NCBI GenBank assembly: GCA_022385805.1
Contig: MU277690.1
Coordinates: 258,799 to 317,172, forward strand
Length of the DNA stretch: 58,374 nt
Direction: 5' to 3'
Source of the DNA: Pilatotrama ljubarskyi
Taxonomy: Eukaryota > Basidiomycota > Agaricomycetes > Polyporales > Polyporaceae
In this document: one piece after another, positions 27,170 to 52,966 of the stretch
Layout: the number at the start of each line of letters is the position of its first letter
Position numbering within the stretch: position 1 is the first letter of the stretch
The notes under the pieces: generated by a model
Seen by the model: only the letters and a program-made list of their open reading frames with translations
Databases searched by the model: none
What the model was told of the DNA's origin: nothing
Translations under genes and position numbers: made by a program

Positions 27170-28946
27170 CTATGGCCGGAAGTAGTCAGTAATCGATCTT
27201 TCCCTCATGTTGCGTTGCGCATCAAGTGACAGCTGGCGCCCAAACTGCCTGAGGATGTCTTCGAGTTTGCGAGCAAGTGGGTCATTGAGTGTGTTGGAGT
27301 ACCGGGTGAGGAGCGCGGCCGCTTGGAGTGCTTCTCGTCGCGTCGGCTGAGGCTCGGGTTCCTCGTCTTCATCCAAGGGTGGTCCAGATTCCAAACCATC
27401 TTCATGCGCAGCGTGCTGTACAGCAAGGAAGATCTCCTCGTCTGATGTCATCTCGATCAACTGGGCCTCAATCTGTGGGTTGAGCAGAGATGCGACGTCC
27501 ATTCGATTGCACTTCTGGAGTGCTCCGGTTTCGACAAGGTTATTGAGTGCGGTCTCGACGGTCTTCTCAGCTTGTTGGACAGGGTCGCAGGCGCTCGCGG
27601 CGTCCGAGAGAAGCGAGTCGACAGGGACTGAGGGTGTGGGAACGGGGAGATTAGAGTCCACGCCAAGATTGGGGGGCAGGATGCCAGCCTTGCGCCAGCA
27701 GTGTCGTATGGTTGTCGTGTCGATGTCCTTCCATGCAACGTCAGCAAGCCGCATGGCCTCGAGCTGGTTGATGTTGTAGATTTCGGATGGGGTGATGCCG
27801 GCGTCGTACCGATTAATTGAGCGCTCAATGAACTTCGCGCGATAATGGGCCTTGAAGCACCGGATGATGCCTTGGTCGTTCAGCTGTACATGAGCGGTGA
27901 GGTTGGCCTCGAAGTTCTCAACGCGAATGGTGCTGGGAGCGGCGTGTGCAGAGAAGTTGTCCTGGAGCAAGAGGATTTTACGACCTTCACGTGCGAGCTT
28001 CCTGTCCCACTCCTCAATCCACTCCTGATATAGCGTGGTCGTCATCCAAGCCTTCGCATTGTGCCGATATCGAAAGCCTAGCTGAGCTGCTGTCTTCTTT
28101 GCGAACGCTCTCAGCTGCTTCCACTTCCCAATGACGAAGGGAGGGAGTTTATCGGTACCACTTGCATTTGCTGTGAATGCGTAGGTTAGGCGGACCTTCT
28201 TGCCTTTGACGCCAGAGGTAGCCTTGTCGGAAAGCCCACGATCCAGAGGAAGCCTGCGTATACAATCATTAGTTAGGATAATTTGTATCGTAACCCAAGA
28301 AGGCTGTACCCGTAGAAAAGGCCCGTCTCATCCATATTGTAGATGTCGCGCAGCTGGTAGCCGCCTTCTGCGATGAGCTTCTGAATGCGCCGACGTTCGT
28401 CCTCCACCACTACAGCCTGCGCAGACGCCGCTTCGCCGTGCCGCTTGAACTCGCGCAGTCCATGCCGCTTCTTGAACCTCTCCAGCCAGCCGTTGCTGAG
28501 CCGCAGCTGCTGCTCGGCAGGAACCTGGGCTCGGTCTGCGAAAAACTTCCATTTGTGGCGCAACACGTCGCCTGTGAGCTGGATATTCGACGACAGGGCA
28601 GAAGCCACCCATAAATCCATCATTTCCTCGACTTCGGGAAGCTGGGTCTGCAGGAGACGCTTTGCCGACCCCGCTTTGCCTGCCCCGCCTCCTGCCTGTT
28701 CCCACCTTTTCCGCCACATCTCCTCGTCCTTGACCCACGAGCTAATGAGCGGCTGCTTCAATGTGAGGTTCGGGTAGATAGCATTGAAGTGTTTCGCGGT
28801 TTTCGTCTGGTTCCTGCCATTCACGTGGTACCAGTCGAGAATCTCGATCTGTTGGGCGAGCATCGCATTCTCCTTCCTCTCGAACACCGGCTGGGCAGCT
28901 GTCTTCTTCTTGGGTTGTTCCGCAGTGCTCTTCATATTCTCCGGCC
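27170..28946 (-). CDS. Pogo/Tigger-type transposase (DDE_1, CENP-B-like HTH)
   Basis: DNA cut-and-paste transposase. One intron (28254-28309, 56 bp) joins the two parts in frame; from the ATG at 28935 the product is about 569 aa. The N-terminal part has a Psq-like HTH (KTAKHFNAIYPNLTLKQPLI) and a CENP-B-type HTH (RLSNGWLERFKKRHGLREFK). The catalytic acidic residues are in DIYNMDETGLFYG, KILLLQDNFSAH and LNDQGIIRCFKAHYR, so the DDD triad is present with no stop or frameshift. A further upstream exon is likely: a 65-bp intron (28947-29011, GTGGGT...AATAAG) would join the frame at 29012 in phase, giving an uninterrupted basic run through QKRKRPENMKSTAEQPKKK. That exon is split by the nested transposon. 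Confidence 0.9.
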
Positions 28947-29164
28947 CTTATTGATCATGTCAATTCAACTCATCCCGTGTTCAGATAATACATTTTCGAG
29001 GATTAACCCACGCTTTCGCTTCTGGCCAACCACGGCGTGTGGCTCCCCCTCGACAGCACCACATGAGCGCGAGCCCTCAAACGCCACTGTCAGCCGTGCA
29101 ATGGCAGTGCTTTCGGCCGCTGTGAGCGTGCGGAGCCCTGCCTCAAAATCCGTTGCATCTTCTA

Positions 29165-29231
29165 CAGCTGTTTGCAGAATCATTGGACGGGCGCTTTTGT
29201 CGACGCGCCGCGCCCAAACAATTCAAACAAC
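29165..29231 (+). repeat. Left terminal inverted repeat of Tc1/mariner element
   Basis: 67 bp, reverse complement identical to 33281-33347, preceded by TA. Confidence 0.95.
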
Positions 29232-29539
29232 ACAAAAAACACGAACGGCATCGGTTCGCTGCAGAGGCCCAGTCTCGCTCCGCTATAATGCCTTGCTGCC
29301 CTCAAAAGATCATTTTTACATACTGTAGTAGGTTGAGGGGCCCTCAGGGGATGTAGAACTCATGTGTAGTAGACAGGACAAAATGCGAACAAGCCGTGTC
29401 CCTCCTGCTCAGGCTACGGTGGCAACACTTGACAACCTCACTAGCATATGGTCGCAACTGATATTGGTGCCCTACCACCATCTCCTTCCTCTCATTTCTC
29501 CATCTCACTTTCCCGACTTCTCTATCCTGTTGTTGCGTG

Positions 29540-31866
29540 ATGGCTGTCGAGGACGGTGGGCCACCGTCCGGGACCCCAGCCGCCACCGAGGCTCTACTGG
29601 CACTGGGCAACCCTCAGCCTCCACAGGACAGTGTTGAGGATGACTCCGACGACGCGCGCTGGTCGCCGTTTTATGGAATCAATACAGGCCTTGGCTCCGA
29701 CGACAGTCTTTCCAATGATGGCCTTGAGTCGGAGGTCCAAGAGGCCACAACGGGGCACGAAGCCGCTCAATTGGCCCTGAATGATGATGACGTGGTCTTT
29801 ATCGAGCACTCCGACCAGGAGAACGTGGACACCAGTGCACCATCTACTCATGTCCAGCGGTCCTTCACGGAGATAGTAGGAGACTTGGAGACTTCTGGCT
29901 CTGGTACGTGCTCTCAACGAGTGCTTGCTCATGCACGGACGCAAGTTGGAGATGACTTGGACTCACATACGACCCTCAATGGGTGCTTTGTTGAACAGAG
30001 TACACCTTCGCATCAGGGAGTAGCCCCGAGCTGCCTCTCCGCGGGCTTCTTCTGGCACAGGCAAAACATGCTTCTCGACAAGCATCGACGTCACAGTCCG
30101 GCCTCAAGATAACGCTCCCTCCATTGTCGAAGCTCGGAAAGGCGTCAACTGGCACCCACAAGGCGTCAAGTACTCGCTCGCCTCTTCCGGCCCCAAAGCA
30201 GAGGAAGAGCCCTGTCAAGAAGAGAGGAAGCTCACGCTCAGCAAATCGAGATACAGCCGCACATCGACTCAGGTTGAATATGCAGTACAAGCGGCAGAAG
30301 GAGGGACGCACGCATCGCACCATGAAGACGTCCACCAAAAGCGCTACTCCACATGAACGTTCACACACTCGCGCTCCGATACCCGACCTCGCTGCGGCTG
30401 TTGACCTCTTCTCCGACATCGCATGCGATGCAGTTTCACCCAGCGCCAGGGAGCCTGATGAACAGTTCGAGGAGTCAGAGAATGTTCCACCCCGAAAGGT
30501 GGCGAAGCGTGCGGGTCCTGGTCGTCCACCAGTCAAGGCTACTCCACTCACGAAGTACTCGGTGGCGGCGTACATTGAGGTCCAGCACCTTCGTGAGGTA
30601 CAGAAGACTCCTCGATCAAAGAAGATATGCGAGCCTGAGATATGGTGCGGTGGTCCTGTCACGATTACGCACCTGACGACCTGGCCCGAGCTCCTTGACG
30701 CGATTGCGAGGACTGCGCAAGTCCGAAGGGAGAATCTTGTCATAACGTCCCTTTGCTGGCAGTTTGCGGCCTTCGGAAAGTCCTCGAAGAGTGCACTTCT
30801 TCCGCTGACAGACGAGGCGGGGTTCAATGCACTCATCAAGGAGGGGATACTCAGCTGCAATGGTGCGCAGGTCTTGGTCTTGCGTATGTCCCCTCCCATC
30901 AAGCCGGCTGTGAAGGCTCATCACACGGTGCATACCTTCCATTCTCAGGCACCCATGACAGCCTGCGCTGATACCTATCACCCTCTGCAGCTGCCGTGGG
31001 CTACTGTAGCCAGCGACGAAGTTCCGGACTGGTTGCATGCCGGTTTAGTCGTCAGTGGTGAAAGTGGAGGGGGAAATGTGACAAGTGGGGAGGAGAGCGA
31101 GGAGGGCGACGCAGGAAAGAAGGGCAAGGGAAAGGGAAAAGGGAAAGCCAAGTCGAAGTCGAAAGCGGTAAGTGTCGAGGTTGTCAACCTGTAACAGGAA
31201 TGGAAATATCTCACATATGTGGCGTCTCCATAGCTCAGCATAGACGACCTGCTGGCGCCAATTGTTGAGAAGCTTAAGCTCCGTTATCCCGTCGGATGCT
31301 GTCCCTACCATCCCGGGAAGCGTTGCTTCTACCACCGCGGTCTGGACTTACATTTCGAGCTGGATAATAACCGGCTCTTGGTATGGGCGGCGTCAATAGA
31401 GAAGGTATGCTTCTCGCGGTGCTATGTGTACACTAATTGATGCCCGAGTTGCTCAATGGTGACATATTTACTTCAGGGCAACGACGGTGTCGACTACGAT
31501 CACATTCCAATTCACAGCAAGTTCTTCCAAGCCAGCCAGGCACTCAAAGTGCCACTTGCGACTGCCCAAGGGGACCGGCAAGGCTTTCGCACTCTGGCTG
31601 GCGAAGCTCCACCACCGCCGGTCACTTCCCATCCCCAACCTTATCCCGCTCCTGGGATGCCATATCCTATCATGCAACCACCTCCTGGTATGTACCAATA
31701 CCCTCCCATGTACGGTGGAGCATACAGCGCTCCCCCGATGATGCCGTACTATCCTCCAGTGATGTCTGCCCCGCAAATGGGCCAGGCTGGATATTACCCT
31801 GGTTTCGGGCAGCCGATGCCTGGTCCTTCTACACCTGGCGGCAGCTACAGCATGCCTCCGCAGTGA
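29540..31866 (+). CDS. Cargo gene of the Tc1/mariner element, unknown function
   Basis: The ATG at 29540 opens an acidic exon (MAVEDGGPPSGTPAATEALL, then LNDDDVVFIEHSDQENVD). A long middle exon (30097-31167) has basic NLS-like runs (PKQRKSPVKKRG, PPRKVAKRAGPGRPPVK with an AT-hook-like GRP core), a folded-looking segment (ITHLTTWPELLDAIARTAQV, ENLVITSLCWQFAAFGKSSK) and a Lys/Gly tail. Introns 31168-31233 and 31405-31476 are phase 0. The fourth part has YPVGCCPYHPGKRCFYHRG with four Cys and two His, a possible zinc site, then LHFELDNNRLLVWAASIEK. The last exon ends in a Pro/Tyr/Met-rich tail. The junction between exon 1 and the exon at 30097 is not resolved; an extra small exon is likely. I do not recognise the family. 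NLS, AT-hook-like and Cys/His features suggest a nuclear DNA- or chromatin-associated protein (inference). Confidence 0.75.
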
Positions 31867-32056
31867 ACGACAGGCTTGCGAGTCACTATACGCCACATAT
31901 ACCCCGTTGCTCAGACATTGTGTTTACCTTTTGCCGTGTCTTCCACTCATTCCTTGCTACATATTGTCACTCCTTCTAAATAGCATAACGGACATCCTTA
32001 GAAGCACCGCCGCCGGGCGTAATAGTGTCGAACAGTAGGATTATTTTAATCATGAT

Positions 32057-33199
32057 CTAGGCAGAGATGTACCCACTGTGCGCATACCACCCGCGTGCCT
32101 TCTCTGGCGTGACAGCAGCCACGCAGCCTTCCATGATCCCTAGCTCGGGTCTGTCCTCCTCGTCCCACATCAATCCATGTCGACGAAAGTGATACTTCAC
32201 TGTGGGCAGACGACAACACTCGTCAGAGATCATCATAATGACCAGATTTATCTTTAGTACCCACCGCAGCTGAACGCCTCCTCTATCGGGTTGTAGTCAG
32301 GCGAATAGGGTGGAAGGAATATATAGAGACAGCCTGATGCACTGTCAGCTATCGCCGGGGTGAAGAAGACCAGATGCCAGCTCACCGGCAGCTTCAATGG
32401 CCTCGCGCACCGCAGCACTCTTGTGTGTGCGACAGTTGTCGACGATGAGGACACTGTTGGGACCGGGGAAAGGGTTCATCTTTGGTAGCTGACAGGGGGA
32501 TGTCGGGAACATATATGAAGCTCGAGACGTAGAGTCACTCACCAGGTCATTGACGATCCAGTCGTAGAACTCCCTGCTGTCGACCGCATGCACAATGCGG
32601 ATGGTGAGGAAACCATCGACACTCAACGCTGGCAGAATGCTATAGCATTTCCCACGCCTGAAAGAGTAGACCTCACAAGCACGCTTCCCTGCCAGTGCAC
32701 GCCCATAATGCCGATGTATGGTGCGGTTGTCCTTGCTGGACTTGTCGGCGAAGACAAGCTGATTGGCCGTGAAGCGCGACACGATGTCTGCCTTCCACTG
32801 AGCGCGTGTGAGCTCGTCGCGCTGGGATGCGGTCTTGCGGAGCTTCTTATAGGTGTAGCCAAGAGCCACGAGGGCGCGATGAATAGTGCTGACAGAGAGG
32901 GGGAGATCGTAGTTGACAGCGAGCCAAGAGGCAATCTCGTCGAGATAGATGGAGGGGGCCGCGCGGAGGAGATCCTGGAGGTCCTCGAGTATTGCGCTGC
33001 TCAAGACTCGTGGCCGGCCTTGGAGAGTCGTCAGAGACGACAGGAAGTGACGTTCGCCCTGAGGTTCTCTAGAGACCCATCGAGCGACACTTTGCCGTGA
33101 GACTCCAAGAGCGTAGGCCACGTCAGCGACCTTCCAGCCTGCTCCAACGAGGACGACACATCTCTCCTTTAGATCGCGACTGATTTTCCACCTCGCCAT
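32057..33199 (-). CDS. Tc1/mariner (IS630-like, DDE_3) transposase
   Basis: Three introns keep the frame open: 32200-32264, 32334-32385 and 32489-32542. Spliced length is 972 nt, 323 aa, from the ATG at 33199; an ATG four codons upstream is an alternative. The N-terminus has a homeodomain-like HTH (WKVADVAYALGVSRQSVARWV). Catalytic residues are in QLVFADKSSKDNRTIHRHYG (first Asp), NSVLIVDNCRTHKS (second Asp) and FLPPYSPDYNPIEEAFS (third acidic). IS630/Tc1-type transposases cut at TIR ends and insert at TA, matching the TA duplication of the element. No stop or frameshift was found. It starts about 80 bp inside the right TIR and points towards the cargo gene. Confidence 0.9.
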
Positions 33200-33280
33200 G
33201 CAGGAGAACAATGAGAATAGACTCTACAAGAAGCTACAGGGACGCGCAAGCATGGACAGCAGTTTTCGCGGTTTTTTTGC

Positions 33281-33347
33281 GTTGTTTGAATTGTTTGGGC
33301 GCGGCGCGTCGACAAAAGCGCCCGTCCAATGATTCTGCAAACAGCTG
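33281..33347 (-). repeat. Right terminal inverted repeat of Tc1/mariner element
   Basis: Reverse complement identical to 29165-29231 and followed by TA at 33348. Confidence 0.95.
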
Positions 33348-33805
33348 TAACATGTTGATCACGCGCTGCTCATCGACGAGATTTGCTTCGTTGTCAAGCC
33401 ATGCCTCGTCGTCAGACCCGATGGGCTTCTTCGCGGCAAGAGCAGCCTCAATGCGTGCGCGGCACTCAGCGACCTGTCCCTCGAGAAGCTGGAATGCTTC
33501 TTTCAACTTCTCGAGTGACAATTGATGCAAGGACATAGGGAGGGCGAGGCGAAGGAGTGGTCACAGGCACAGGCGTGGGTTGCAAGCACATCAGATTACT
33601 ATTATGGTAAGTGAACTTATGGGTTTTGCTCGGGCATCGGACTATGGGGTATGGGCTATCACAGGTTCATGGGTTATGGGGTCGATTTCCCCCTTCCCCA
33701 ACTCGGGAGAACCGAAATCCTATGGGTTATCACAGGTTATGGGGTACGAGAGGTATGGATTAGGAGGGTGTCGACTGTACTCTACCGTACTTTACAGACC
33801 AATCA

Positions 33806-42491: not shown

Positions 42492-43997
42492 TCACTGTTT
42501 TCGAGAAGTTGCTGAAGGCGTCGTGATAGATGGTGTGCAACTTCCGCAGGGCATGGAGTACTCCGAGCCTTATTCTGATCGTGCAGTGTTGTGCATGACC
42601 AGAACTGTATGCCATCATCTGGCCGAAAGTTGTCTCTGCGGTGTGTTTAGCCGGTACCGAAGAAATGATACCGGCTCAATGTTTGTTTCCCTCCAACGGA
42701 CACTGCAAGTGGCACGACCGGAACGTCGTCGTCTGCCCGGCCTAAGCTCGAGAACGAACATAAGTACTGTATCGGGCTACACAAAAGAAGGCGTGCCCAC
42801 GAAGTGAACTAAGAGCCTCCCACGAAGTCGAACCAATGGCTCCATCTCCTCGCACGAAAGCATTGACCGATGAGTTCCAAGCACTGACAATTAGACTGCG
42901 CTGGTGCCGGTAACAGCTGGTTGCAAAATTGGAGACCGCGCGGGCTCGCCGCAAGCGGGCGCGTCTTGTTTGGTGTAACACCCGGCGTCCGTAACGCCGT
43001 AACACTTCCTATTTCAGACCATTACCTTATTAGTCACCTTCCTAATCCGTTGTATCCGCCTTGCTTGCTAATGCCTGGAAGTTTTCCTCTCCTCGCCGTA
43101 AAACTTCGCCTCCCCGAAAAGTATATACTATCCCTACCACGGATATGCAAATCCGCAACAGAAGTTGTCACTGCTCGAGCACATCGCGTCCGCATCACCT
43201 GTAAATTCACCTGGGCATTCTATCACGTCTATACTGCATGCATTCAACTTTTTGTGGCGAAATACGGTCTACAGAGTCCTGCGGAGCACTTCCGGGAAGG
43301 GACTAGCAAGAGTTCACGGTAATGCACATCGGGCGCTCTGCTACGCCTCTGAGGGTGTTCCCGTCCTTCCAGGCGAGCAAACACATATCGGGCATGCGCA
43401 ATCTATATTTCTACTATGCTTCAGCAATCGTGCAAAGTTTCACTCTTATCGGACGAGTGGAAGTAGTGGGATCTGGTGGAGATGCATGTGCAGAGGCGTA
43501 CACTTTGCGCGTGATCCTTGTTTTCAGCCCCTACAGATCGCAAACTTCACTCGTTCCTCTCCAAATTACATTGTCTTAATCAGCAAGAGTATACAAATCT
43601 AATACAAAAAGAATCAAGAGAATTTGTGGAGTGGTGGGGGAGGAACGGGCGATTTGCATTACTGTGTACTTGTGCATATCCGTGGTAGGGATAGTAAAGC
43701 CTTCGTTTTGTACCTAGAGAATCATCGTTCTTGTCAGTAATCGACAGACCGTACACCTGTCCTTCGGCGCTTGAACGTTCTCGTGTGCCGCCTCCGACTC
43801 CTTAGCGGCCGGCGTCACATCTTTTTGACAGTACATGACTACTGTTGCTCTCTACTCTCTACTCTCTCTACTTGCTCGACTCTCTACTCCCTCGCTTTAC
43901 GAAAAGTCTCCGCTAGTCTGGGCTCTAGGTCCGATCAACCTTCGACTTCCGACTCGCTTCGACACCACCAACCAACCCTCAAGTCTTCAAGCTCACC
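42492..43997. other. No supportable gene; probably contains the 5' LTR of the next element
   Basis: Short conflicting frames only. The pyrimidine-rich 43850-43930 stretch (CTCTCTACTCTC words) just before the gag start looks like a 5' leader. LTR borders could not be defined because no 3' LTR was matched. Confidence 0.35.
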
Positions 43998-52735: not shown

Positions 52736-52897
52736 CGCTCCTCAGTACTACTTAGTAGTATATCATTCCATTGACTCGCACAGGGTAAGCAAGGGATAAT
52801 AACGACAGAAAAGACACAGATATTGCATTCTGGACAACTCTCCCGGCTTTGAGGGTGCATCACCGACTTATCTGAGCTCACCGTGTGTTTCGTGTCT

Positions 52898-52966
52898 TTT
52901 CCACAAATCAGGCGCAGCACGTCAATTGGAGCGCAAGTCCAATGATTTTGCAAACAGCTGTAAGAT
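52898..52966 (-). mobile_element. Decayed right end of the Tc1/mariner family
   Basis: GTCCAATGATTTTGCAAACAGCTG followed by TA matches the right TIR of the 29165-33347 element with one mismatch in this core, and weaker similarity runs back to a GGCGCAGCACGTC phrase. No left end or transposase was found nearby, so this is a relic end. Confidence 0.65.

Follow-up and report, generated by a model that had tools for sequence, protein, structure and literature searches.

A stretch of 58,374 nucleotides from Pilatotrama ljubarskyi (Polyporaceae; contig MU277690.1, positions 258,799 to 317,172), referred to below as the window, contains at positions 29165–33347 an element of 4183 bp that carries a transposase gene and a second gene between terminal inverted repeats (TIRs). 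We analyzed the window together with the genome of the species (33.1 Mb, 173 contigs). The features of the element and its target site are as follows:

29163..29164, no strand: left TA target-site duplication, read directly.
29165..29231, plus strand: left TIR, starting CAGCTGTTTGCAG and matching the right TIR at all 67 bp; the run of identity was recounted.
29540..31866, plus strand: second gene, 697 aa, with exons 29540–29903, 29999–31167, 31234–31404, and 31477–31866.
30547..30894, plus strand: segment of the second gene (approximately residues 305–420), predicted as strand-strand-helix-strand-helix-strand, a PB1/ubiquitin-like layout, in a low-confidence model.
31234..31527, plus strand: segment of the second gene (approximately residues 512–585) with the motif C-x2-H-P-G-x2-C ... 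H-x2-L ... L-x2-WA, assessed by a profile shuffle test.
32057..33199, minus strand: transposase gene, 323 aa, DD34E, DDE_3, with exons 33199–32543, 32488–32386, 32333–32265, and 32199–32057.
33281..33347, minus strand: right TIR of 67 bp, identical to the left one.
33348..33349, no strand: right TA target-site duplication, read directly.

The original prediction, made from the DNA letters, had described identical 67-bp inverted ends with TA on both sides, and both points were borne out. When the TIR arms were extended over the TA and one mismatch, they reached 77 nt at 99%. Ends resembling those of the window element (85–91% over 53–54 bp) recur at 13 further genomic places and bound elements there, so that the TIRs are far beyond chance.

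When the two flanks were joined with one TA kept, a minus-strand open reading frame (ORF) of 128 aa was found to read through the junction (window 28000–29164 and 33350–33560), and the protein beside the interrupted ORF matched HTH_Tnp_Tc5, the Tc5-type transposase DNA-binding domain (E=2.5e-15). The element is therefore nested in transposon-like coding sequence. A search of the genome for this site without the insertion found no such copy: the two halves matched the window itself, and a single further match, at C168, covered part of the right flank at 77%.

As raised in the original prediction, the second gene could stem from an independent element that had entered a transposon with one gene, and the location of the whole element inside another transposon-like unit might be taken to suit such nesting. 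Four inverted-repeat pairs of at least 20 nt were detected in 28800–33700, namely the TIR pair, one pair inside the transposase gene, and two wholly outside the element, and none of them bounds the second gene alone. As a sister element described below is also arranged identically, we consider two nested or adjacent elements to be highly improbable.

The final splice model of the transposase was set after comparison with relatives, whereas the Pfam and protein searches were made with an earlier 325-aa model that differs from it at two introns. Pfam recognized DDE_3 (E=7e-25), with HTH_33 and HTH_23 also above the cut-off. The catalytic triad consists of D152, D236, and E271, the second and third being separated by 34 residues. 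Conservation was counted in an alignment with 120 listed of the 558 transposase relatives found: the first Asp was kept in 118/118 of those with a residue there, the second in 103/107, and the last Glu in 94/100. At position 153, adjoining the first catalytic Asp, the window transposase has Lys, while all 117 aligned relatives with a residue there (three have gaps) have Glu. Thus, the predicted DDE_3-type transposase without visible break was confirmed as to its intact reading frame, but Lys153 replaces an otherwise invariant residue, suggesting that the activity of this copy may be weak or lost. The public gene model (P0006, 232 aa) omits the segment following the first catalytic Asp and stops prematurely, and the annotation therefore hides the full-length frame. 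In a tree of 28 rows (26 of the 120 listed relatives plus two), the nearest relative of the window transposase was NUW54_g7458 of Trametes sanguinea, with a value of 99 in the SH-like approximate likelihood ratio test (SH-aLRT).

The second gene was found to be spliced and to face the transposase tail to tail, as the original prediction had stated, its four exons ending with a stop at 31866 and the transposase gene with one at 32057. Its spliced product equals the public protein BV20DRAFT_979584 (P0001) of P. ljubarskyi, and the basidiomycete host assumed in the original prediction was correct. At E<=1, there was no Pfam match for this protein or for P0002, P0004, and P0130, and the sole match of P0126 was SR-25, below the cut-off. 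The intron at 31405–31476 falls within the region of the Cys/His...WA motif. A protein search with residues 250–660, in which the 7988 candidates sharing the most words with the query were scored, gave five proteins including the query itself. The relatives were from T. cinnabarina (43% over the whole query), T. sanguinea (40% over 84% of the query), Cerioporus squamosus (38% over 34%), and Cubamyces menziesii (44% over 34%). Two tblastn scans of viral contigs, one with each second-protein family alignment, gave no relative.

A genome search with the window transposase showed cousins at C73, C145, C8, and C72. At C8 and C72, the cousin belongs to a sister element of 3541 bp with ends starting CAGCTGTTTGCA. 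The sister transposase (331 aa when spliced, with one intron being GC-AG in the model) likewise has 34 residues separating the second and third members of the triad, carries a D-E-S motif, and is 37–39% identical to the window transposase in two tblastn segments; in the tree it was represented by a shortened sequence of 193 aa, which makes its position rough. A second gene starts close to the other end, on the opposite strand, and is convergent with the transposase gene; its 489-aa model is identical to BV20DRAFT_1050023. Of the 3541 positions, two differ between the copies at C8 and C72, one residue of the second protein being changed, and no similarity was seen in the flanks read; the target duplications are TA and GA, respectively. 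Near-identical copies in unrelated flanks therefore represent two independent insertions that carried both genes. The original prediction had spoken of movement as a unit in connection with a captured cargo gene, and such co-movement is seen here in the sister.

The two families differ in their target duplications. All 13 places of the window family read at both ends have TA, while in the sister family TA was present in one of five places read (TA at C8; GA at C72, C16, and C1; GC at C37). This sample is small, but C8 and C72 are near-identical elements, and the GA and GC duplications (L041, L050, L051, and L052, at C72, C37, C16, and C1, respectively) are unusual for Tc1/mariner. At C37, the sister ends lie 3.59 kb apart and the interior reads N. 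Inverted arms (193 nt at 78% and 141 nt at 87%) were also observed outside the C8 element, at L040 2826–3245 and 8406–8782, and the C8 copy therefore lies inside a larger palindrome-like arrangement. The window itself contains a lone sister-like TIR end at 42914–42973 (83–84% identity to C8/C72), for which no partner end was detected.

The 13 places with window-type ends were read over up to 10 kb each, one being shortened by a contig end, and 12 gene-less elements with both ends were found, all 12 flanked by TA. L017, with a single end detected, and the overlapping second element end at L015 are left out of this count; L008 is included. Eleven of the elements are 868–875 bp long; the element at L008 (3006–4994) measures 1989 bp owing to an insert of about 1.1 kb. 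The copies at C24, C22, and C18 are 100% identical over 875 bp. The resemblance to the window element is in the ends only, typically over the 24 terminal bases, where one base differs, and over a 16-bp block spanning positions 38–53. It is likely, as judged from these ends, that the gene-less elements were moved in trans by a window-type or related transposase. A fragment of such an element (81–85% identity to the other copies across some 200 bp) lies in the window at 52757–52960 and ends in CAGCTG followed by TA; its second end was not found by match.

The original prediction had named, as a case that would speak against it, copies with the same TIRs and a transposase lacking the second gene. 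Such copies were not seen in this genome, the gene-less copies matching in the ends only. Taking the evidence together, the two genes very probably form one moving element.

The original prediction had left two readings side by side: the element might belong to a two-gene lineage that is new, or its second gene might be captured cargo. In the latter, a host gene would have been picked up between the TIRs and moved passively, without a role in transposition. That the second protein has no Pfam match, that no transposition domain was recognized in its relatives, and that Tc1/mariner elements are described as typically encoding a transposase only (PMC12242761) would all suit a passenger, as would the occurrence of window-type transposases in species without a listed second gene. 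On the other hand, homologs of the second gene were present at three places in this genome, at all three inside TIR-bounded elements with a transposase, and none was found outside transposons. Cargo would be expected to vary, but the second genes of two divergent transposase lineages are related to each other and are placed and oriented alike. The pair also recurs in T. sanguinea, where the second protein (NUW54_g7457) and the transposase (NUW54_g7458) have consecutive numbers and are both listed with a contig of 5,296 bp. Because the homologs occur only in TIR elements, the sister has the same layout, and the pair recurs in T. sanguinea, the second gene appears unlike random cargo and the two-gene lineage is favored; passive cargo we regard as unlikely.

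Several observations weigh against a strict partnership of the two genes. The recurrence in T. sanguinea is judged from gene numbers and the same listed contig size, the DNA being unseen. In the other three species with the second gene, no transposase from a same-sized contig was present among the 120 listed of 558. The window-type second gene is known from five species and, among the matches listed, occurs together with a window-type transposase (at least 49%) in only two. Transposases of this type (49% or more) were also found in T. cubensis, T. versicolor, Dichomitus squalens, and Ganoderma adspersum, and T. cubensis and T. versicolor had no window-type second gene among the matches listed. 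In T. cubensis and Phlegmacium glaucopus, a transposase from the list of relatives and a sister-type second gene are on contigs of unequal size. For the cousins at C73 and C145 in P. ljubarskyi, the best second-gene match within about 5 kb was not significant (E 0.055), and the 9.9 kb read around each contained no matching end pair. Related one-gene elements may therefore exist.

The kinship of the two second-protein families is subject to similar reservations. The score of the Cys/His...WA domain common to both was reached by 0/200 column shuffles, and the predicted order of strands and helices is the same in the window second protein and in the PB1-like domain of the sister model. The joint cut of PB1 and WA regions was matched by 1/200 shuffles, and sequence support for a common PB1 region was not found, as 90/200 shuffles reached its score; the cuts were picked after viewing the full-length profile alignment. 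The full-length comparison of the two families was weak (hhalign probability 1.4%, P 0.036). The model of the window second protein is poor, with a mean predicted local distance difference test score (pLDDT) of 39, and gave no PDB match with E <= 0.001. Homology of the two second proteins would rest on one short domain and the layout, and the window protein can be called PB1-like only by its predicted layout, at low confidence. The second-protein models also have long, low-confidence tails that are probably disordered.

We consider that the window most probably holds a two-gene Tc1/mariner transposon (IS630-type, DD34E), the second protein of which more likely than not serves as an accessory transposition factor. 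In this scheme, the transposase would bind and cut the TIRs and insert the element at TA by cut-and-paste. The second protein would act in trans through its putative PB1-like multimerization domain, the Cys/His...WA domain, and the disordered tails, most likely either by forming assemblies with itself or with the transposase at the element ends, or by recruiting the complex to DNA or chromatin. PB1 domains generally mediate interactions and the formation of polymers; zinc binding by the Cys/His module is a guess from its sequence. The gene-less elements of about 870 bp would be mobilized in trans by the same machinery, while the window copy itself possibly no longer yields active transposase.

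A different role for the second protein is conceivable by analogy with the TET/JBP genes of fungal transposons: it might shield the element from silencing or steer integration by interaction with the host, without taking part in the reaction. Fungal DNA transposons with such genes are known (PMC12730594), and long, probably disordered tails together with a PB1-like interaction domain would suit a scaffold. No enzymatic or chromatin-reader domain was found in Pfam, and nothing ties the second protein to silencing, which makes a role of this kind quite unlikely.

If the second protein is an accessory factor, one may go further and propose, tentatively and as something short of an even prospect, a two-component Tc1/mariner branch of the Agaricomycetes that would be new to the literature. 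In such a branch, an obligate accessory protein with PB1-like and Cys/His...WA parts would have co-travelled with DD34E transposases since before the two lineages of this genome split, and one lineage would have lost the strict TA rule (TA, GA, GC).

Compared with known systems, the window element shares with Tc1/mariner DD34E elements the DDE_3 domain, the spacing of 34 residues, N-terminal helix-turn-helix domains, TIRs, and TA. The TA rule holds for the window and all 12 gene-less elements, and for one of five places in the sister family. Tc1 and mariner elements are about 1.2–1.3 kb long with one ORF (PMC7325037), which is usual though not obligatory, whereas the present element has two genes in 4.2 kb. 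The extra proteins of the ciliate TBE elements have thus been called surprising (PMC12242761). Tec and TBE elements have three ORFs each, and the extra TBE ORFs have been proposed as accessory factors (PMC7325037, PMC12242761). They resemble the present element in combining a Tc1/mariner-type transposase with extra ORFs; they are set apart by extra proteins reported as zinc-finger/kinase proteins, a 22-kDa protein with no domain predicted, or a site-specific recombinase (no such domain was found by Pfam here, the ciliate proteins themselves not being compared directly) and by the host, here a basidiomycete.

Two-gene arrangements occur in other superfamilies as well. PIF/Harbinger transposons have a transposase gene and a second gene. 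The same applies to Nuwa (PMC12730594). Unlike these, the present element has a DDE_3 transposase, and no Myb/SANT domain was found in its second protein (Pfam E<=1). Basidiomycete DNA transposons bearing TET/JBP genes (KDZ, Plavaka, and others) are likewise equipped with an extra gene (PMC12730594), but the second gene here had no TET/JBP match (Pfam E<=1). TET/JBP-bearing elements are listed in other groups, the words mariner and IS630 being absent from the main text of that paper (PMC12730594). Among the titles and opening lines of abstracts listed by searches of an open-licence library, we found no description of a two-gene Tc1/mariner element in a basidiomycete, which does not prove its absence.

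Since Tc1/mariner is the textbook case of single-protein cut-and-paste transposition, the retention of a second gene in a fungal branch would show that a partner protein can evolve in such a system, in parallel to what has been described for ciliate TBE and Tec. One genome also offers a natural test set, with two-gene elements, elements that lack genes but have similar ends, and a sister family whose target duplications differ.

A contig scan with the T. sanguinea transposase yielded seven loci with best-segment identities of 29–46%, all titled as bacterial metagenome-assembled genomes. These matches fit the kinship of the transposase with IS630 and have no bearing on the second gene.
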